Below are positions 27,714 to 38,622 of a DNA stretch of 45,320 nt, one piece after another. Position 1 is the first letter of the stretch; every line of letters begins with the position of its first letter. Source of the DNA: Thermoplasmata archaeon (GTDB taxonomy: Archaea > Thermoplasmatota > Thermoplasmata > Lutacidiplasmatales > UBA184); assembly GCA_030037955.1 (NCBI GenBank), contig JASHPT010000105.1, positions 1 to 45,320 on the forward strand, read 5' to 3'. A program made the position numbers and the translations under genes. Under the pieces are notes generated by a model. It saw only the letters and a program-made list of their open reading frames with translations. It had not been told where the DNA came from and made no database searches.

Positions 27714-28625
27714 TTGCCCTTCGCGAACCTGACCGGCCCGGCGGGAACCTCCCTCGTGTTGTGGGAGGAGGACTGCCTCGCGGGTCTTCCGAGACGCGCG
27801 GCGCCGCAGAGCGTCGATGTGGTCGTCACCTCTCCGCCGTATAACCGCGGAGTCGCCTATCACCGGTACGAGGACCGACGGCCGAGGGAAGAGTACCTCG
27901 CCTGGATCGGTCAGGTGGCGGATGCGGTGCGGACGGTGCTCGCGCCCCACGGCTCGTTCTTCCTGAACGTCGGCGGTTCACCGACGGACCCGTGGCTACC
28001 GCTCGACGTCGCGCAGGAGGTCCGCTCGCGGTTCGTGCTGCAGAACGTCATCCACTGGGTGAAGTCGATCGCCATCGAACGTTCCCTGGCCGGCGCCACG
28101 CCACATCTCACGGGCGACATCGCGGTCGGCCACTACAAGCCCGTCCCGTCGCCGCGGTTCCTGCACGGCGCTCAGGAATACATCTTCCACTTCAGCCACC
28201 GGGGGGACGTCCCGCTCGACCGACTCGCCATCGGCGTCCCGTACCAGGACAAGAGCAACGTGGCCCGCTGGCGGGGAGGCCGCCGGGACCTCCGCTGTCG
28301 GGGGAACACCTGGTTCCTCCCGTATCCGACGATCCGACGCCGGGCGACCGACCGACCGCATCCCGCGACCTTCCCGCCGGAGCTTCCCGAGCGTTGCTAC
28401 CGGCTGCATGGCCTGGACCGGATCCGGCTGGCCGTCGATCCCTTCCTGGGCCTGGGGGCCTCGGCCATCGCGGCGGCGCGGCTCGGGATCCCGTTCGTCG
28501 GGTTCGACGTCGACGAGGAGTACCTGGCCGTCGCCCGACGACGCATCCAAGCCGAGCTCGCGCACCCGACCTCGGACGTCCACCAACTCCGACGCAAGAA
28601 TCATCCCCCGGTCCGACGCAAGTAG
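27714..28625 (+). CDS. site-specific DNA methyltransferase, beta-class N4-C/N6-A
   Basis: VDVVVTSPPYNRG motif IV precedes VDPFLGLGASAIAAARLGIPFVGFDVDEEYL motif I; TTG start. Confidence 0.88.
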   Translation: MPFANLTGPAGTSLVLWEEDCLAGLPRRAAPQSVDVVVTSPPYNRGVAYHRYEDRRPREEYLAWIGQVADAVRTVLAPHGSFFLNVGGSPTDPWLPLDVAQEVRSRFVLQNVIHWVKSIAIERSLAGATPHLTGDIAVGHYKPVPSPRFLHGAQEYIFHFSHRGDVPLDRLAIGVPYQDKSNVARWRGGRRDLRCRGNTWFLPYPTIRRRATDRPHPATFPPELPERCYRLHGLDRIRLAVDPFLGLGASAIAAARLGIPFVGFDVDEEYLAVARRRIQAELAHPTSDVHQLRRKNHPPVRRK

Positions 28626-29001: not shown

Positions 29002-30243
29002 TCAGCCGCGCTCGAGCGTGGCGGTGAGGCAATGCGCGCCGCCGAAGGCGCCCGTGAGATTCTCGAGCGGCACGCGGACCGACTGGAGGCCCGCCTCGCG
29101 GGCCTCGGGCGTCCGCGGGAAGAACCGGTCCTCGGCCCGGAGCTCCGTGAACTCCCGGGCGGCCCGGAGGTAGAGCCGGTGATACCTCCGCGGGTCCCGC
29201 TCCGCGACCTGACGCAGGTTCGTGAGCACCCGCTCGGCATTCCGGGAGACGTCCGGCACCACGATCACCCGGTCCCGGATCGTGAGGAAGTTCGTGGCGT
29301 AGCACAGCTGCTCCAGGGTCGTGATCGGGATCACCCGGAAGCCGTGGTCGGACTGGAGATACGAGAGCAGGGTCGTCTCCCGGAGCCGGTGATAGCTCTG
29401 GGAATCCCGGACGTAGACCTCCACCCGGGCGGTCGCGAGCATCTCCGGATAGCCGACCGCCACGCCTTCGGCCGGGAAGTTGAGGTAGGTGTCCAGGTGC
29501 ATGTTCACCATCGGGTCCGGCCGGTCGAGGAGCGGATGGCGGGGCTGGTGGACGACCGCGACCTCGGGAAACCCGAGGCCTCGCTCGAGGAGCTCCCGGA
29601 CGCCGGTCGCGTTGGACCGGTCCCCGGTTCCGACGAGGGCAAAGTCGTCCGCCGGAAGGAAGTCCCCGCCTTCGAAGGTGCCGCGCTCGACCTGGGCGAT
29701 GGGCGGCTCGCCGGAGGCCCTCCACACGAAGGACGTGATCTCCGTCTCGCGACGGCGCTGCGGCTTCGCGAGCCGACCGACGACGATGCCCCGGTCGGTG
29801 ACGGCCTGCTGGTCGCGCATGAAGAACAGGTTGGTGAGCGGCACCCGGAGGGTCGTGAAGGACGCGAGGGACCGGGACCCGCGTCCTCGCTCGAAGCGGA
29901 TCGCCGGAGCCAGCGTCAGCACCTGGATCAGCTGCTCGCCATCGAGTCGTGCCACCGTGTCCTGGAAGCGGGACCGGGCCGCCTGGGCGCCGGGCCCCGT
30001 GAAGGCCATCGTTTCGACGACACGGTCCCGAAGGTCGGCCGCCACGGACGGGCTACGACCGGCGGCCTGGAGCAACCGCTGGTCGAGGTCCTCGACGTGG
30101 ACACCGAAGCCCGACCGCAGCGTCTCGACCAGCTCCTCGTGCTCGTGGCGCGCCCGGGAGAGGCTGAACACACGCTCGTAGAGGCTCGAGTACGGCTCGA
30201 GCAGGCCGAAGAAGGCCTCCATCCGGGGAGGGCGGACGACCAC
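29002..30243 (-). CDS. arcA: arginine deiminase
   Basis: NLFFMRDQQAV, GTFEGGDFL, MHLDTYLN, terminal GGAHCLT catalytic Cys. Confidence 0.88.
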   Translation of the reverse strand: MVVRPPRMEAFFGLLEPYSSLYERVFSLSRARHEHEELVETLRSGFGVHVEDLDQRLLQAAGRSPSVAADLRDRVVETMAFTGPGAQAARSRFQDTVARLDGEQLIQVLTLAPAIRFERGRGSRSLASFTTLRVPLTNLFFMRDQQAVTDRGIVVGRLAKPQRRRETEITSFVWRASGEPPIAQVERGTFEGGDFLPADDFALVGTGDRSNATGVRELLERGLGFPEVAVVHQPRHPLLDRPDPMVNMHLDTYLNFPAEGVAVGYPEMLATARVEVYVRDSQSYHRLRETTLLSYLQSDHGFRVIPITTLEQLCYATNFLTIRDRVIVVPDVSRNAERVLTNLRQVAERDPRRYHRLYLRAAREFTELRAEDRFFPRTPEAREAGLQSVRVPLENLTGAFGGAHCLTATLERG

Positions 30244-30355: not shown

Positions 30356-30787
30356 TTACTGCTGGGTCTCGCCCGACCCAGGGGCGGTCCATTCCTTCAT
30401 CGGCGTGCGCCGGACACCGGCCATGGATGCGAAGGCGTTCTTCGTGCCTTCCTTGGTGGCGTGGCCCGCGGCGGTCAGGGCCTCGGCGGTCGCGGCGCCC
30501 GCTCGGGCGGCGCCCGAGGCGATGGCCGTTCCGGCGCTCGTGAGGCCGCCGGCGACCTGGCCGGGCAGACGACGCATCTCAGCGCCGATGGAGTGTCCGA
30601 GGGCGGCGAAGTCGTCCTCGATGTCCTCCATCGCGTACTTCGCCTCTTTCGCGGTCATGGACCCGAGCCGCGCGATCTTCTCGTCGAGGTTGTCGAACTC
30701 GATCGCGAAGTCGCGGCCGAGTCCCCGGGTCGCACGTCGAAGTTCCGCCATGTGTTCGCGCAGTTGGGCTTGCTGGGGAGTCTCCAT
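30356..30787 (-). CDS. helical hypothetical protein downstream of VWA gene
   Basis: 144 aa, coiled N-terminal half, Ala/Gly-rich C-terminal half; ATG 30787. Confidence 0.55.
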   Translation of the reverse strand: METPQQAQLREHMAELRRATRGLGRDFAIEFDNLDEKIARLGSMTAKEAKYAMEDIEDDFAALGHSIGAEMRRLPGQVAGGLTSAGTAIASGAARAGAATAEALTAAGHATKEGTKNAFASMAGVRRTPMKEWTAPGSGETQQ

Positions 30788-30870
30788 GGGCCGCTCCGGT
30801 CGGCCGTTCGTACGGCACCCTCGGATAAATGTACAGGTTTCCAGTCGCAAGCCGCCGGCGCCTCGGCGGC

Positions 30871-32682
30871 TCAGCCGCCCATCCGCCGGTCCCGCTTGCG
30901 GCGACGCCCCTTCGGGCCCGCGGGACCGGTGGGGGCCACCGGGGTCCGCTCGTCCGGCGCCACCTGCCGGATCTGCTCCTTGCCGCTGGCCCAGCGGACC
31001 AGGAGCTCGATGCCGAGCCGCTGCGGCTCCGTCACCACGAGCTCGCCGCCCAGCCGGTGTGTGAGCAGGCGCGCGGCCTTCTCGTAGTCCGGGTGCTCGG
31101 ACTTGATGAGCACCATCGTGGCGCGGAACGGCTTGACGGAGCTCAGCTCCAGCGACCGGGCCAGGGCGTACTCCATCGCCCGGTCGAGGTTTCCGCTCTT
31201 CGTCGTCCCATCCGTGTCGGTATAGGCCTCCGGCAGCCCGTCGGTGACGAGGTAGAGCTCCTTGCGGTTCGCGCGGGACGCCCGAAGGAGCAGGAACGCC
31301 GTGCGGAGAGCCTCGCCGGTGTTCGTGAACGATCCGGGGGGCGTTTCCCAGAGGGACACGAGGTCGAGCAGTCGCACCTCGTTGTCGAAGGCGATGACGT
31401 CGATGGTGGCGTCCGGATACCGGCGACGAACCGCGACGTAGAGCGCGAGCAGGGCCTTTTTGGCGGCGGGGAGCTTCTCGCCCTCGCCCATGCTGCCGGA
31501 TTTGTCGAGCGCGAGGACCACATGGACGCGCTCGGCCAGGATCTCCCGGAACACGTAGCTGGTCGACTCGTCGATGTGACGGGACCCGGCCTGACGGGCC
31601 GCCAGGACGGAGGACGGAATATCGAGGTGGGCGACCTCGTCCGGGATCCGGAGCCGGGCCTTCTCGTAGACGCCGGTAGCCGCACCGCCCTTGAGACTCA
31701 TCCGGACATCGCCGGGCAGCGACCGGCTCTCGGCTTCGAGGACCAGTTTGGCGAACCGCTCGACCAGCGAGTAGGTGATGGCGAGCTGTCCTCCGCGCTC
31801 GGTTGCCAAGCCCCTCTCCGTGAGCTCCCGCCGCAGCCGCTGCTCCTCCGCCTGCCGGGCCCACTGGTCCGCCTCCCGCTGAGCCCGGCGTTCCGCCTCC
31901 CGGCGTTCCTCTTCCAGACGGCGTCGCTGGGCCTCGGCCTCCTTCCGCTTCGCCTCCGCCTCTCGGGCCAGGGCGCGCTCCCGCTCCGAAATGTCCCGGG
32001 TGACGCTGCTCTCGAGCTCCTCGTGCTGCCGGGGCGTCAGCCGGGCCAGCGCCTCGGAGAGCTCGGACGGGCTCAGCCCCCGCCCCACGGGCAGCAGGGT
32101 GGCGAGCGGCACCGTGCGTTCCTCCCGGGAAGGCTCGGTCGTGCCCTTTCCGCCTCCGAAGAGGCGGCGGAAGAAGGCGGCGATCCGCGCGAAGAACGCC
32201 CGGATCCGTTCCCACAGGGTCGGCGGGGCGGGAGGCTGCATCCACGAGGCGCTCGGAAGGAGCAGGGCATGCTGCACGTCGTCGAAGAGGGCAGCGTCGG
32301 GGAGCTCCCCGAGATGGAGCCTCCGGGCCTCGGCGAGACGCGCCTCGAGGGCGTCCATCTCGTGCTGGAGCTCGTCCGTCTTGGCCTGCCGGTCGAGCTC
32401 GACCTCGTGACTCCGGCGGTCGTACTCCTCCAGGATTCGCGAAACGCGGGAGGAGGCCTGCCGCTTCAGCAGCTCGCGCAGCCGGGCGATCCGACGGGCC
32501 AGCTCCGAATTCTCGCTCGCCAGCTGTTCGACGAGGGAGTGGACCCCGGCTTCTCCGTGCTCGGCGAGCGCCTGGATGACCGCTGCGGTATCGATCGCCG
32601 ACAGGAGGTCGTCGCTCTCGACGTCCTCGACGACCTGCGAGCAGTCCGGAAGTGGAACAGCTTCAGCCGGCGGCGACGTCAT
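30871..32682 (-). CDS. VWA-domain protein with N-terminal coiled coil
   Basis: VHVVLALDKSGSMGEGEK MIDAS, ELYLVTDGLPEAYTDTDG; long charged coiled coil. Confidence 0.88.
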   Translation of the reverse strand: MTSPPAEAVPLPDCSQVVEDVESDDLLSAIDTAAVIQALAEHGEAGVHSLVEQLASENSELARRIARLRELLKRQASSRVSRILEEYDRRSHEVELDRQAKTDELQHEMDALEARLAEARRLHLGELPDAALFDDVQHALLLPSASWMQPPAPPTLWERIRAFFARIAAFFRRLFGGGKGTTEPSREERTVPLATLLPVGRGLSPSELSEALARLTPRQHEELESSVTRDISERERALAREAEAKRKEAEAQRRRLEEERREAERRAQREADQWARQAEEQRLRRELTERGLATERGGQLAITYSLVERFAKLVLEAESRSLPGDVRMSLKGGAATGVYEKARLRIPDEVAHLDIPSSVLAARQAGSRHIDESTSYVFREILAERVHVVLALDKSGSMGEGEKLPAAKKALLALYVAVRRRYPDATIDVIAFDNEVRLLDLVSLWETPPGSFTNTGEALRTAFLLLRASRANRKELYLVTDGLPEAYTDTDGTTKSGNLDRAMEYALARSLELSSVKPFRATMVLIKSEHPDYEKAARLLTHRLGGELVVTEPQRLGIELLVRWASGKEQIRQVAPDERTPVAPTGPAGPKGRRRKRDRRMGG

Positions 32683-34210
32683 CCGTCGGCTCCTCGGCGC
32701 AGCTGAAGAGCGAATATTTCTCCACGAGGCCGAACTCGGCGACCGCCGCCGGCCACGGACCGACGGCGGCGGGGTGCTCCCGCTCCTGCACGTAGGTCAC
32801 GAACGTGTGGAAGCGTGGGAACATCTCGGCCTTCCCCTGGGCCTCGTTCTGGAGCGCCGCATCGGGGAGCAGACGGCGACCCTCGCCGATCAACGCCTGA
32901 GCCTCGTCGTTCTTGGACTTGAGCACGTCCCGGAAGTACCGGCACCAGTAGACCTTGGCGCTGTCCTTGAGCGACGTTTCGAGATGCTGGTCCAGAAAGT
33001 CCTGGACCCGCTTCGAGTTCTGCTGGAACGAGTCGCCGCTGCGGGCCCGGATCCGCCCCCGCATCGCGTGCAGGATACCGGCCTTGAGGTCATCGAGGGT
33101 GGGCACCGGGTGGGTACCCAGGGTCCCGTAGGCTTCGGCACGGGCAATGACGTCCAGCAGGGTCCGGTTCGACCCGACCTCGCCCATGTCCGGGTCCTCG
33201 TCGGACATCCGGAGCCGCCAGGCCTCGATCATCCGGACCCCGGCGTCCAAGAGCACCTCGGGAACATACCCCGAGGGGGTCTCGCGACGGGCCCGGTCGA
33301 CGATCGCCCGGTTCGCCGAATGCCGTTTGTTGAACCCCACGTGGAGGCTGGTCAGCCGGTCGGACAGGGGGTCGTTGATGTTGTCCAGGTCGGACAGGTT
33401 CGAGGTGCAGATGGCGACGAACAGCGCCGGGAAGCTCTCGCGAGACTTCGACGGCGTGACGGTGCCCTCCTGGAGGGACTGGAGCAGCACGTTCTGGGTG
33501 CCGAGCGGCAGCTTGCCGATCTCATCGACCAGCAGCAGGCCCCGGTTCGCCTGCAGAAGTTTGCCGGGCTCGAGGACGAGCGGACTCATCGGGTCGCCGA
33601 TCTCCTCGAGCTTCCGAAGGTTGACGTTGCCCGTCAGGTGGTCCGGGAAGACTTCGCTCGACCCCTGGAGTCGGGCGAACCCGTAGCCCTCGCGGCGACG
33701 GACGCGGAGGGCGGGCACCTTGCTCCCGTCGATCAGCGTCGGGTCGAAGGCCGCAACCTCGCCGCCCGGGGAGAATCGTCGGCGACAGATGGGGCAGGGC
33801 GGCAATCGTTCGGCCGCCTCCTTCGTCACGAGGCTCAGCGGGTCGTCCCCGACCGGGCAGCCCTCGACGACCCAGAGGTCCTTGGGGAACAGGCCCCAGA
33901 GCTCTTTCGCGAGCGACGTCTTTCCGGCGCCGGAAGGCCCGAAAAACAGCACATGGGCACCGGAGACCAGGGCCGCGACGAGGTCTTCGTAGGTTTCTCC
34001 GGGCAGGACCGTGTGCGGGAACAGGGCCGCCACAGCCTCGGACTGAGAAAAGCCGTGTTTGCGGGTTTCCCCCACGCGCCGAAGGATCTCCGCCCGGAAC
34101 AGCTCGATCGGGGTCTGGGCCGGATTTCCCTGAGCTTTCAGCTGGGCGGCCGTCGACCGAGCGCCGATAGCAGGAGCGGGCCGGGCGCCGGCAGCAGGCA
34201 CATCGGCCAC
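32663..34210 (-). CDS. AAA+ ATPase, MoxR-like with PrkA/YeaG-like features
   Basis: VLFFGPSGAGKTSLAKEL, LPPCPICRRRF, LTGNVNLRKLEEIGDPMSP, LLQANRGLLLVDEIGKLP, FPALFVAICTSN. Confidence 0.88.
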   Translation of the reverse strand: MADVPAAGARPAPAIGARSTAAQLKAQGNPAQTPIELFRAEILRRVGETRKHGFSQSEAVAALFPHTVLPGETYEDLVAALVSGAHVLFFGPSGAGKTSLAKELWGLFPKDLWVVEGCPVGDDPLSLVTKEAAERLPPCPICRRRFSPGGEVAAFDPTLIDGSKVPALRVRRREGYGFARLQGSSEVFPDHLTGNVNLRKLEEIGDPMSPLVLEPGKLLQANRGLLLVDEIGKLPLGTQNVLLQSLQEGTVTPSKSRESFPALFVAICTSNLSDLDNINDPLSDRLTSLHVGFNKRHSANRAIVDRARRETPSGYVPEVLLDAGVRMIEAWRLRMSDEDPDMGEVGSNRTLLDVIARAEAYGTLGTHPVPTLDDLKAGILHAMRGRIRARSGDSFQQNSKRVQDFLDQHLETSLKDSAKVYWCRYFRDVLKSKNDEAQALIGEGRRLLPDAALQNEAQGKAEMFPRFHTFVTYVQEREHPAAVGPWPAAVAEFGLVEKYSLFSCAEEPTDDVAAG

Positions 34211-34342
34211 GAGGCGGCCGAGCCCGGGCGGCTCTAATTAGCTTTGGGGCGGCGCGAGCGCGGGGGCCTCGCCGGTCGCCGGTGACTCGCCGGTGCGGCC
34301 GGCAAATTTAAGTAGGAATCCCCAGTGGGCGGCCCCACCCCG

Positions 34343-35071
34343 ATGGCCGAGAAGGAGACCGGCGGCAAGAAGCCCGCACTGGCCCGGACCGTCAAGGACA
34401 AGTGGCGGTCGAAGCGCTGGTACAAGCTCAAGGCACCGGGAATCTTCCAGCATGTCGACCTGGGCGAGACCGTCTCCACGGAGCCCGAGCAGCTCACGGG
34501 ACGGACGATCGACATCACCCTGTCCGAACTGGGAGGCGGGGGCGACATCTCCAAGGCCCACATCAAGCTCCGATTCCAGATCGAGCGAATCAGCGGTGAG
34601 GGTGTGGCCGAGACCCGGTTCGTTGGCCACGACCTGACCTCGGACTACGTCCGACGCCTCGCGCGACGCAAGCGCTCCAAGATCGACGCCTCTCTGCTGG
34701 TCACCACCAAGGACGGTGTTCAGATGCGGCTCAAGCCGGTGGCCGTCGGTGAGCATCGGCTGCAGTCCCGGCTCCGCAGCGAACTTCGGAACACCCTCCG
34801 TCAACTCCTGGTGGACGAGGCCGGGAAGCGGACCGCCGCGGACTTCGTCCGCGAGATGCTCCAGGGCGACCTGGGGAAGACGCTCTCCCAGGGCCTCCGA
34901 ACCCTCTATCCGCTCAAGAAGATCGAGATCCGCCGGTCCGAGATCCTCGGGCCGATCGCCGACGAGCCCGCTCCCGCCGGTACCGAGGAACCGCCGGCCG
35001 ACGCGGGGCCGTCCGGACCCTCCGCTCCCGAGGCACCCGCTTCCGAGGAGAGCGAGGTCTCCACGGCCTGA
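34343..35071 (+). CDS. rps3ae: 30S ribosomal protein S3Ae (eS1)
   Basis: DKWRSKRWYKLKAPGIFQHVDLGET, GRTIDITLSELGGGGDISKAHIKLRFQI, LYPLKKIEIRRSEIL; upstream AATTTAAGTA TATA-like. Confidence 0.93.
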   Translation: MAEKETGGKKPALARTVKDKWRSKRWYKLKAPGIFQHVDLGETVSTEPEQLTGRTIDITLSELGGGGDISKAHIKLRFQIERISGEGVAETRFVGHDLTSDYVRRLARRKRSKIDASLLVTTKDGVQMRLKPVAVGEHRLQSRLRSELRNTLRQLLVDEAGKRTAADFVREMLQGDLGKTLSQGLRTLYPLKKIEIRRSEILGPIADEPAPAGTEEPPADAGPSGPSAPEAPASEESEVSTA

Positions 35072-35357: not shown

Positions 35358-37277
35358 GTGAGCTCCCGACGTCGGCTCGCCGCCATCATGTTTACCGACG
35401 TGGTCGGGTTCACCGCGTCGGCGCAGGCCGACGAGGCAGGGACCCTCGCTCGGCTGCGGGAACTGAACGAGCTCGTTCGACCTCTTCTCGCCCCCTTCGG
35501 GGGCCGCGAAATCAAGTCCACGGGAGATGGGTCGCTCATCGCATTCGATAGCGCTCTCAAAGCGACGGAATGCGCCGTGGAGATTCAGCAGCGCCTGTCA
35601 GTTCGCGGCGTGGGGGGTTCACCATCGGCAATGCGATTGCGAGTTGGAATCCACGTCGGCGACGTAGAGGAAAGCGAAGGGGACGTCTTTGGGGATGCGG
35701 TCAACGTCGCCTCCCGCATCGTCGCGATTGCTGAGCCCGGAGGCATCTGCGTATCGGGCGCGGTCCACGACCATGTCCGAAACAAGATGTCCCAGCGTCT
35801 GGAAAGACTCCCGCCGACCGCACTCAAGGGAGTGCAGACTCCCATCGACATTTATCGGGTCGTCTTGCCGTGGGCGGGTCGAGATACCGCTCACGGGAAC
35901 GCCCCGTCCACCGGACTCGCCGTTCTCCCCTTCACGAACATCAGCCCGGATCCCAAGGACGAGTACATCGCTGACGGTCTGACCGAGGAGTTGATCACGG
36001 TGCTCTCTCAGCTGCGAGATCTTCGGGTGATCTCTCGCACATCGGTCATGTTGTACAAGGCCACTCCCAAGTCGGCCTCCCAGATCGGGGCGGAGCTGGG
36101 GGTCTCCTCGCTGCTGGAGGGAAGCGTTCGGAAGGCCGGGAATCGGCTACGGATCACAGCCCAGCTGATTGAGGTCCGGACCGACCGACATCTATGGGCC
36201 AAAACCTTCGACCGAGAGCTCGATGACGTGTTCGCAGTTCAAACCGAGATCGCGAAGCAAGTAGCGGATGCATTGAGGCTTGAGCTGCGGCCAGCGGAAG
36301 AGGCGCGTCTCGACTCGCGAGCGACCGTACGACCCGAGTCCTATCTCGCCTACCTTCGTGGGCTGACACTCATGCGAGAAACTTCTCAAGCCGCGCTCGA
36401 GGCGGCCCAGCGCGAGTTCGAGATTGCTATCTCGCTGGACCCTACCAACGCAGGCGCGTACGGCAGGCTGGCGAGTTGCACGCGGTACCTCGGGATTTGG
36501 TACACGGACCTATCCCGCACGGAATGGGTAGAGAAGGTACGAGCGTCTGCGGCTCGAGCTCTGGAACTGGATCCGAATCTTTCGGATGCCCATGTTGGGA
36601 TGACGGCGGTCCTCTTTCGGGAACAGGATTACGCCGGGATGGAAAGAGAATTCAAGGCCGCCCTCTCGCTCAGTCCGAGCCATGCCTTGGCCCACAACGG
36701 CTACGGCAACATCCTGGATTACGTAGGCCGGCCGGAGGAGGCGCTGGCCGAGTTCCGGCTTGCCGAGGCTGCCGACCCCCTGTGGCTCCAAAACCTCAGA
36801 GATATCGCGTGGCTGCTCACTACGCTCGGTCGTCTCGACGAGGCGTGGGTCTCACTTGAGAAGATCAAAGCGCTCGCGCCCGATTCCGACTATCATTTCC
36901 TGCTCGGGGACTACTACTTCGCCCGATCGGAGACTGCCAAGGGTCTCGAGGAATGGCGACGGGTCGAAGCGCTCGATCCCGATGTTCGGTGGAGACAAGT
37001 CCTACGGGCGTGGAGTCTCGCGCGCTCCGGGGAGTCGGACAAGTCGAGGGAAATCCTACGGCACGAGGAGACACTGCCTCTGGTCGGTTTCTTACCTACG
37101 AACGTAGCCCAAATCTATGCGGAGCTCGGCGATCTGGATGAGTGCTTTCGCTGGCTCGACAAGTCACTCGTGGCGCATGATCTCCCGCTGATGAACATTC
37201 GCCTACCTTCGCGGTACGAGAACGTTCGCCGAGATCCTCGATACCAAGACTTGTTGGCGAGAATGAACCTCGCGTAG
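35358..37277 (+). CDS. class III adenylate/guanylate cyclase, TolB-like middle domain, TPR C-terminus
   Basis: IMFTDVVGFTAS, EIKSTGDGSLIAF, GDVFGDAVNVASRI; LAVLPFTNISPDPKDEYIADGLTEELITVLSQL; TPR repeats; GTG start with TTAATC ~25 nt upstream. Confidence 0.92.
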   Translation: MSSRRRLAAIMFTDVVGFTASAQADEAGTLARLRELNELVRPLLAPFGGREIKSTGDGSLIAFDSALKATECAVEIQQRLSVRGVGGSPSAMRLRVGIHVGDVEESEGDVFGDAVNVASRIVAIAEPGGICVSGAVHDHVRNKMSQRLERLPPTALKGVQTPIDIYRVVLPWAGRDTAHGNAPSTGLAVLPFTNISPDPKDEYIADGLTEELITVLSQLRDLRVISRTSVMLYKATPKSASQIGAELGVSSLLEGSVRKAGNRLRITAQLIEVRTDRHLWAKTFDRELDDVFAVQTEIAKQVADALRLELRPAEEARLDSRATVRPESYLAYLRGLTLMRETSQAALEAAQREFEIAISLDPTNAGAYGRLASCTRYLGIWYTDLSRTEWVEKVRASAARALELDPNLSDAHVGMTAVLFREQDYAGMEREFKAALSLSPSHALAHNGYGNILDYVGRPEEALAEFRLAEAADPLWLQNLRDIAWLLTTLGRLDEAWVSLEKIKALAPDSDYHFLLGDYYFARSETAKGLEEWRRVEALDPDVRWRQVLRAWSLARSGESDKSREILRHEETLPLVGFLPTNVAQIYAELGDLDECFRWLDKSLVAHDLPLMNIRLPSRYENVRRDPRYQDLLARMNLA

Positions 37278-37607: not shown

Positions 37608-37629
37608 CATGTATCCAACAAGATACATG
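37608..37629. promoter_or_regulatory. inverted repeat CATGTATC-N6-GATACATG, candidate operator
   Basis: Perfect 8-bp arms, 6-nt spacer, at start of HTH-MNT gene. Confidence 0.55.
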
Positions 37630-38223
37630 CAGTTCCAGCGAGCCTTGAACCCGGTTCTCGCCAGTAAGACGAAGTTGGAGCTGCTCCGAACGATGTTCGG
37701 ATCTCCGGGTCAAAGATGGACGGGGCGAGAACTGGCACGTTCTGCGGGTGTGTCCACCGCCCAAGCCGCCCGCGACCTCGCCGAACTCGCAGACACGTCC
37801 GTTGTTCTTCGCGAAGTCGTCGGACGGTCGTACTCTTGGCGGCTGAACTCCTTTCATGTCCTGTTCGCAACGCTAACGGGCCTCTTCGTGCAAGAGGCGA
37901 GCCTGAGGTCGGAGCTTCTGCACGATCTGTCGGATGAACTCCGACATGCGAGGCCCGAACGGGCCCGGCTGTTTGGCTCTGTTTCTCGGGGGGAGGAACG
38001 CCCGGACAGCGATGTGGACTTGTTCGTCCAGGTCCGGACGCCCGCAGATAGGCTCGAAGTCGAAGAGGCTGTCCGGCGTATCCGAGCCCGAGTTTGGGAT
38101 CGATTCGGAAATCCTGTCTCCTCGTTGGTATACACTCGAGCGGAGCTAGCGCGACCCAGGAACCCCGCCCTCCTCGAATCGATCGAGCGAGAGGGAGTGG
38201 AAGTGGAGACCGGGGCTCGCTAG
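37609..38223 (+). CDS. winged-HTH plus MNT-type nucleotidyltransferase
   Basis: HTH (WTGRELARSAGVSTAQAARDLAEL), then RLFGSVSRGEERPDSDVDLFV (GSxxRGx5SDxDL); alternative start ATG 37627. Confidence 0.88.
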   Translation: MYPTRYMQFQRALNPVLASKTKLELLRTMFGSPGQRWTGRELARSAGVSTAQAARDLAELADTSVVLREVVGRSYSWRLNSFHVLFATLTGLFVQEASLRSELLHDLSDELRHARPERARLFGSVSRGEERPDSDVDLFVQVRTPADRLEVEEAVRRIRARVWDRFGNPVSSLVYTRAELARPRNPALLESIEREGVEVETGAR

Positions 38224-38226
38224 ACG

Positions 38227-38622
38227 ATGGCTCGAACAGAAGTTCTGCCGAAGGCAAGGTATTCCATTTACCTGGCACGAGCGCGTGAGTTCGCCCGCCA
38301 GATGGACCGGGCCGCCGCCGACCGAGCTTGGAACTCCGTCGGTCTTCTCGGAGTTCATTGCGTGATTTCCTCGTGTGACGCCCTGACCGTCCGCCGAGCC
38401 GGTCAGCGTTGGAGCGGACAAGATCATGCCGGGGTGGTCGGAATGGTCAGATCCCTCGATCTGCCGAAGTCGGACGTGGTGCTCCGACAGGTCGCACAGG
38501 TGCTCGAACGGCAGAACCGCGTGGAGTACGAGGCGCGGGAGTTCACCGAGAGAGAGGCCGTCGAGGTCCGTCTGCAGGCAGCTCGCATTCTCCGCTGGGT
38601 TTCGTCCGAGCTCCCCCCGTAG
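38227..38622 (+). CDS. HEPN-domain protein
   Basis: Helical, AREFARQMDRAAADRAWNSVGLLGVHCVISSCDALTV...RWSGQDHAGVV...LERQNRVEYEAREFTEREA; immediately follows MNT gene. Confidence 0.82.
   Translation: MARTEVLPKARYSIYLARAREFARQMDRAAADRAWNSVGLLGVHCVISSCDALTVRRAGQRWSGQDHAGVVGMVRSLDLPKSDVVLRQVAQVLERQNRVEYEAREFTEREAVEVRLQAARILRWVSSELPP

Follow-up and report, generated by a model that had tools for sequence, protein, structure and literature searches.

PrkA/YeaG, a stress protein found widely in bacteria, has a disputed activity (kinase, protease or neither): its assignment as a kinase or a protease is contested, and the B. anthracis protein shows negligible kinase activity (PMC13001217). It is encoded in an operon with YeaH, which has a von Willebrand factor type A (VWA) domain, and in some cases with SpoVR. 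AAA+ ATPases of the MoxR kind likewise have VWA partners; NorD-type partners have a finger that has been proposed to reach into the AAA+ pore (PMC9976466), and ViaA, which partners RavA, has an Arg-rich amphipathic helix through which it binds lipids (PMC9489729). Here we describe a locus in a 45,320-nucleotide (nt) stretch of DNA from a soil archaeon of the Thermoplasmata (contig JASHPT010000105.1; referred to as the window), in which an AAA+ ATPase gene overlaps a gene for a VWA-domain protein and is followed by a gene for a small helical protein, HEL. The AAA+–VWA pair is related to two families of bacterial machines already described, but belongs to neither.

All three genes are on the reverse strand. 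The AAA+ gene (32663–34210), with a PrkA-like/MoxR-like core, has a GTG start and codes for 515 amino acids (aa), and the VWA gene (30871–32682) codes for 603 aa (VWA_2, 33.1 bits). HEL (30356–30787) has 143 aa, the 144 given in the initial annotation including the stop codon. The 20-nt overlap reported there between the AAA+ and VWA genes is exact (common stretch 32663–32682), and most related loci (62 of 80) have an overlap of either 17 or 20 nt; VWA and HEL are separated by a gap (median 71 nt) with no overlap. Because orthologues with intact frames, at widely differing identity, are present in dozens of metagenome-assembled genomes, we conclude that all three frames are real genes. The window itself comes from a metagenome-assembled genome of Thermoplasmatota. 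Its named relatives are almost all Thermoplasmata metagenome-assembled genomes, and one is Candidatus Lutacidiplasma, so that the window is probably from the Lutacidiplasmatales; a text search of the paper describing that group (PMC9287336) gave no mention of AAA, MoxR, PrkA or von Willebrand.

The conserved unit is the AAA+–VWA pair, which is kept together across the phylum. Among 244 Thermoplasmatota genomes the AAA+ is found in 32 and the VWA protein in 31, with both in 30, only one in three and neither in 211; of the discordant genomes (G107, G099 and G090), the VWA gene of G107 is truncated at a contig edge and the match in G099 begins at contig base 7. Within the archaeal family of this locus the AAA+ gives strong matches in 37 of 37 genomes and the VWA protein is present in 36, and at loci outside the family the VWA gene adjoins the AAA+ gene in 19 of 20 instances. 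At two related loci (L091:2556–7901 and L093:2535–7784) an AAA+ gene without an adjoining VWA gene is followed by genes for an M16 peptidase, a phosphodiesterase, a second M16 peptidase and a DUF4147 protein; in genomes of this type the VWA gene is located elsewhere.

The initial annotation placed the AAA+ between the PrkA and MoxR types, and this position stands. All of the elements it listed are present (Walker A GPSGAGKT, CPICRRR, LTGNVNLRKLEEIGDP, LLQANRGL and Walker B LLLVDEIGK). Across a family alignment of 26 sequences their core residues do not vary, and almost every position of Walker A (aa 91–98, 33917–33940, reverse strand) is invariant. In Pfam the protein matches AAA_PrkA (PF08298) at 42.1 bits (cut-off 25), Mg_chelatase at 41.8 and Sigma54_activat at 39.6; AAA_3/MoxR (PF07726) is also above its cut-off of 27 but weaker than AAA_PrkA, at 29.8 bits. 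Local profile comparison of the core gives the highest score to PrkA (144.9), followed by MoxR and the actinobacterial AAA+ (both 116.2), ChlI (107.0) and LonB (101.1). The PrkA alignment spans a Cys-bearing insert (GCPVGDDPLSLV...CPIC, 33785–33859, reverse strand) of the form GCPxxxDPLxL...CPxC, common to Bacillota-type PrkA, in which C118, C139 and C142 are invariant in our alignments; it is possibly a metal site. The RLQGSSEVFPDHLTGNVNLRKLEEIGDP segment (33590–33673, reverse strand) resembles both MoxR RIQFTxDLLPxDITG and PrkA LTGSxDxSxIxExG. A MoxR-style RxQ...P...TG segment is present (RLQ...VFPDHLTG), and the protein resembles MoxR around the RLQGSSEVFPDHLTG segment and at Walker B (LLVDEIGK, 33512–33535, reverse strand), where PrkA has MEFVEM. 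The Walker B DE is intact in every archaeal AAA+ aligned, unlike the degenerate MEFVEM type.

An alternative explanation is that this is a divergent PrkA–YeaH system, in which the AAA+ is a genuine PrkA with a kinase-like function in a pathway that responds to starvation or stress. The Pfam match above cut-off, the top core profile and the shared Cys insert all fit this reading, as does PrkA being the best tblastn match in plasmids. However, the PrkA C-terminal (kinase-like) domain, for which the initial annotation had proposed a check, gave no Pfam match at E values up to 1, and the NCBIfam PrkA equivalog scores 24.3 bits against a cut-off of 576; the C-terminal part is instead a helical domain of about 170 aa. 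Walker B, degenerate in PrkA, is intact. The VWA partner is also not of the DUF444 (YeaH) type, aligning over 107 columns at 81% with the YeaH profile versus 284 columns at 99.3% with the actinobacterial VWA. A search of 118 Thermoplasmatota genomes gave no SpoVR match and no DUF444 match above cut-off, with control genomes positive for both, and a PF08298 scan of the phylum gave no strong canonical PrkA (best 49.5 bits). The analogy to a yeaG–yeaH–spoVR operon drawn in the initial annotation is not supported, an assignment of the AAA+ to PrkA was rejected on three defining features, and we regard a PrkA–YeaH system as very doubtful.

The AAA+ phylogeny points to a separate lineage. The archaeal sequences group together with support of 96/97, and the MoxR set, in which few subfamilies were sampled, is a separate group (100/99); the archaeal AAA+ falls outside this sampled MoxR clade rather than squarely within it, and filing it as MoxR was rejected on that position. 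PrkA is the sister of the archaeal group in the best tree (support 78/73), but neither MoxR (p-AU 0.42, approximately unbiased test) nor the actinobacterial AAA+ (p-AU 0.37, four bacterial sequences) is rejected as sister. A tree that unites the archaeal clade with the ChlI set is rejected (p-AU 5e-6), although the ChlI sequences do not themselves group as a single clade. Coverage outside the phylum was sparse, comprising six PrkA and four actinobacterial-type sequences taken from E. coli and plasmid records, together with a single pattern scan of genome contigs. The archaeal AAA+ is a supported clade of its own, whose sister could be PrkA, MoxR or the actinobacterial AAA+.

The partner carries a VWA domain (aa 385–566, 30985–31530, reverse strand; Pfam) with a metal ion-dependent adhesion site (MIDAS; DKSGS, 31492–31506), in agreement with the pairing proposed in the initial annotation. 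All 75 full-length orthologues have the MIDAS DxSGS, and 74 of them have TNT and TDGLPE. Close to the N-terminus, every sequence of the family alignment has an LP.C motif, and two orthologues outside the family have LPDC. Profile comparison with hhalign indicates that the protein is not YeaH and that its nearest relative is the VWA protein of an actinobacterial/Chloroflexota pair annotated as a "sigma 54-interacting regulator" and a VWA protein, with homology that continues past the VWA domain; ViaA (one sequence) scores 14%. This bacterial pair, which we take to be of the Rv0958/Rv0959 type, raises the possibility that the archaeal genes are simply its archaeal branch with the same function, for example chelatase-like metal insertion. 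In addition to the long VWA alignment, the AAA+ proteins align at almost full length (434 columns, 99.0%), the gene order is identical, with an 8-nt overlap in Tsukamurella, and a joint AAA+ clade is not rejected. Nonetheless, the bacterial AAA+ scores below PrkA over the core (116.2 versus 144.9), the amphipathic helix seen in the archaeal VWA proteins was not found in the bacterial ones, and our literature search found no paper on the function of the bacterial pair. We consider a simple archaeal branch of this system unlikely.

An AlphaFold2 (AF2) model of the VWA protein (mean predicted local distance difference test, pLDDT, 77.8) predicts two coiled coils, at aa 32–120 (32323–32589, reverse strand) and aa 217–289 (31816–32034, reverse strand), with a helix at 156–175 between them. 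This coincides with a cationic amphipathic helix, LWERIRAFFARIAAFFRRLFGG (aa 156–177, 32152–32217, reverse strand), a candidate membrane anchor identified in a helix scan of 40 archaeal orthologues. A segment of this kind, mostly within residues 138–175, is present in nearly all of these and is matched by no more than five of 100 shuffles in 32 of the 40; the same scan found none in actinobacterial-type VWA or YeaH proteins. The cationic amphipathic helix is a new feature of nearly all the archaeal partners. Solved NorQD complexes are among the top matches in a fold search with the model, and a hairpin following TDG (aa 484–498, 31189–31233, reverse strand; predicted strands 486–488 and 494–496) may correspond to the pore finger of NorD.

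HEL gave no Pfam, NCBIfam or PADLOC family above cut-off. It has conserved N-terminal (REH...GLGxD) and C-terminal (AAGVxRxPMxEW) motifs, and its matches to apolipoproteins and alpha-synuclein are of a composition type only. The initial annotation treated it as a constitutive third member, and this holds in part: HEL is present in 35 of the 37 family genomes, all with the AAA+, but it is unlinked in four genera (g2, g3, g4 and g7) and a search of 24 relatives beyond the family did not detect it, although the pair persists there. A neighbourhood view had suggested its absence from some genera, which was overturned when a whole-genome search found it elsewhere; the unlinked HEL neighbourhoods have no recurring partner to explain its location. 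Two side observations concern HEL. One locus (L210:4947–5234) has a short HEL paralogue that keeps both terminal motifs and lacks the middle, and some loci without linked HEL (among them L073:4495–5985 and L088:9401–10879) have, next after the VWA gene, one for a protein of about 495 aa, which in L073 has no Pfam match.

The second new feature is a conserved tail, RRMGG, on those VWA proteins that have a linked HEL. In the window it reads RRRKRDRRMGG, at the VWA C-terminus (30874–30906, reverse strand). HEL lies downstream in 58 of 58 full-length VWA genes with the tail, and 13 tail-less VWA genes have no downstream HEL; the sole exception, L061, has an anomalous and probably frameshifted VWA end. 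The tail codons differ synonymously among orthologues, and selection therefore acts on the protein. The genome contains this motif a single time, and an interpretation of the di-glycine as a ubiquitin-like conjugation signal is weakened both by this and by two of the 58 tails (L031 and L038) that extend past the GG. Since the association with HEL linkage arises from two independent changes alone, we treat it as a lead and not as proof. It bears on whether HEL is an unrelated passenger, a late embryogenesis abundant (LEA)/apolipoprotein-like stress protein that is merely downstream in some genera. The unlinked genera, the lack of detection outside the family, the compositional matches and the intergenic gap are consistent with a passenger; the co-occurrence with the AAA+ across the family, and the tail invariably found on intact VWA proteins with linked HEL, argue otherwise. 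We consider a passenger quite possible, if somewhat the less probable outcome.

Our favoured reading, held with moderate confidence, is that the two core proteins make up an ATP-driven remodelling (chaperone) machine of the MoxR/VWA kind, docked at a membrane, with HEL as an accessory client or adaptor. In its favour are the co-occurrence and adjacency of the two genes, the conserved Walker A/B and MIDAS residues, the fold matches of the AAA+ to BchI/ChlI and 2r44 and of the VWA protein to NorD, the post-TDG hairpin, the amphipathic helix and the lipid binding of ViaA. The AAA+ would assemble into a ring and hydrolyse ATP, and the VWA protein would dock on this ring with its post-TDG hairpin in the pore, its MIDAS gripping an acidic patch on the client. 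The cationic helix between the two coiled coils would hold the VWA protein at the membrane, and HEL, in this archaeal family only, would have an accessory role, probably that of a client or adaptor, engaging the VWA protein perhaps via the RRMGG tail.

Several observations weigh against this proposal. The AF2 model of the AAA+ is of moderate quality overall (pLDDT 75.9) and weak in the core (below 50 at 175–193, 198–213 and 271–292). In the PDB its best fold match is BchI (1g8p, E 1.9e-4), followed by ChlI, archaeal Lon and a MoxR-like putative ATPase (2r44), but these matches superpose badly (root-mean-square deviation 11–22 Å). The amphipathic helix scan is a heuristic. The AAA+ and VWA genes are apart in G008 and G018, where the VWA gene is elsewhere in the genome, and in G069, where it is on another contig. 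Outside the family the pair has no conserved neighbour, and none that points to a client, and the small number of tree changes behind the RRMGG association counts here too.

Other genes surround the module. A divergently oriented S3Ae ribosomal protein gene (34325–35071, forward strand; Ribosomal_S3Ae 184.9 bits), which is context and not part of the module, is upstream in most family loci, and an arginine deiminase-family gene (29002–30243, reverse strand; ADI 124.6 bits), directly downstream of HEL, is a frequent but not constant family neighbour. Further away are an N6/N4 DNA methyltransferase gene (27714–28625, forward strand; 117.8 bits) and a gene (35358–37277, forward strand) for a class III nucleotide cyclase domain (Guanylate_cyc 54.5 bits) fused to a long tetratricopeptide repeat (TPR) region, a fusion uncommon in archaea. 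At 37609–38622 (forward strand) a nucleotidyltransferase-domain protein gene is followed by one for a 131-aa protein without a Pfam match, a layout that gives the impression of an MNT/HEPN-type toxin-antitoxin pair. PADLOC returned only generic AAA+ matches, and a defence-system reading was dropped.

The archaeal pair shares features with each of the systems compared. The PrkA/YeaG–YeaH(–SpoVR) operon has the AAA+ core nearest to it by profile, and the archaeal pair shares with this operon the Bacillota-type Cys insert and a VWA-type neighbour; it differs in the missing PrkA C-terminal domain, the intact Walker B, the non-DUF444 partner and the lack of SpoVR in the phylum sample. ChlI/BchI (Mg-chelatase) is the best PDB fold match of the AAA+ (1g8p) and has a similarly placed Cys insert, but uniting the two is rejected in the tree, with the proviso given above on the ChlI set. 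The actinobacterial/Chloroflexota pair is alike in gene order and overlap, protein sizes, the extended VWA homology and the near-full-length AAA+ alignment; it differs in having a core less similar than that of PrkA, no amphipathic helix and no HEL. NorQ–NorD and RavA–ViaA share the AAA+ with a VWA partner, the MIDAS, the predicted post-TDG hairpin, the RxQ...P...TG segment and a likely membrane association, whereas the archaeal AAA+ lies outside the sampled MoxR clade and has an extra Cys insert and a helical C-terminal domain; the archaeal VWA protein has a different N-terminal half from MoxR-type partners, and its candidate lipid helix is placed otherwise than in ViaA. One improbable view is that the PrkA–YeaH, MoxR–VWA and actinobacterial pairs derive from one ancestral AAA+–VWA machine, the Thermoplasmatota pair being a surviving membrane-anchored intermediate and one family having gained a helical adaptor recognised by the new RRMGG tail. 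That an archaeal relative of PrkA keeps Walker B intact, has no kinase-like domain and pairs with a MoxR-style VWA protein suggests that this AAA+ core originally served in ATP-driven remodelling together with a VWA partner. RavA–ViaA is a precedent for lipid binding by an AAA+/VWA pair (PMC9489729), and the family-wide amphipathic helix predicts that the archaeal pairs, like RavA–ViaA, work at the membrane.

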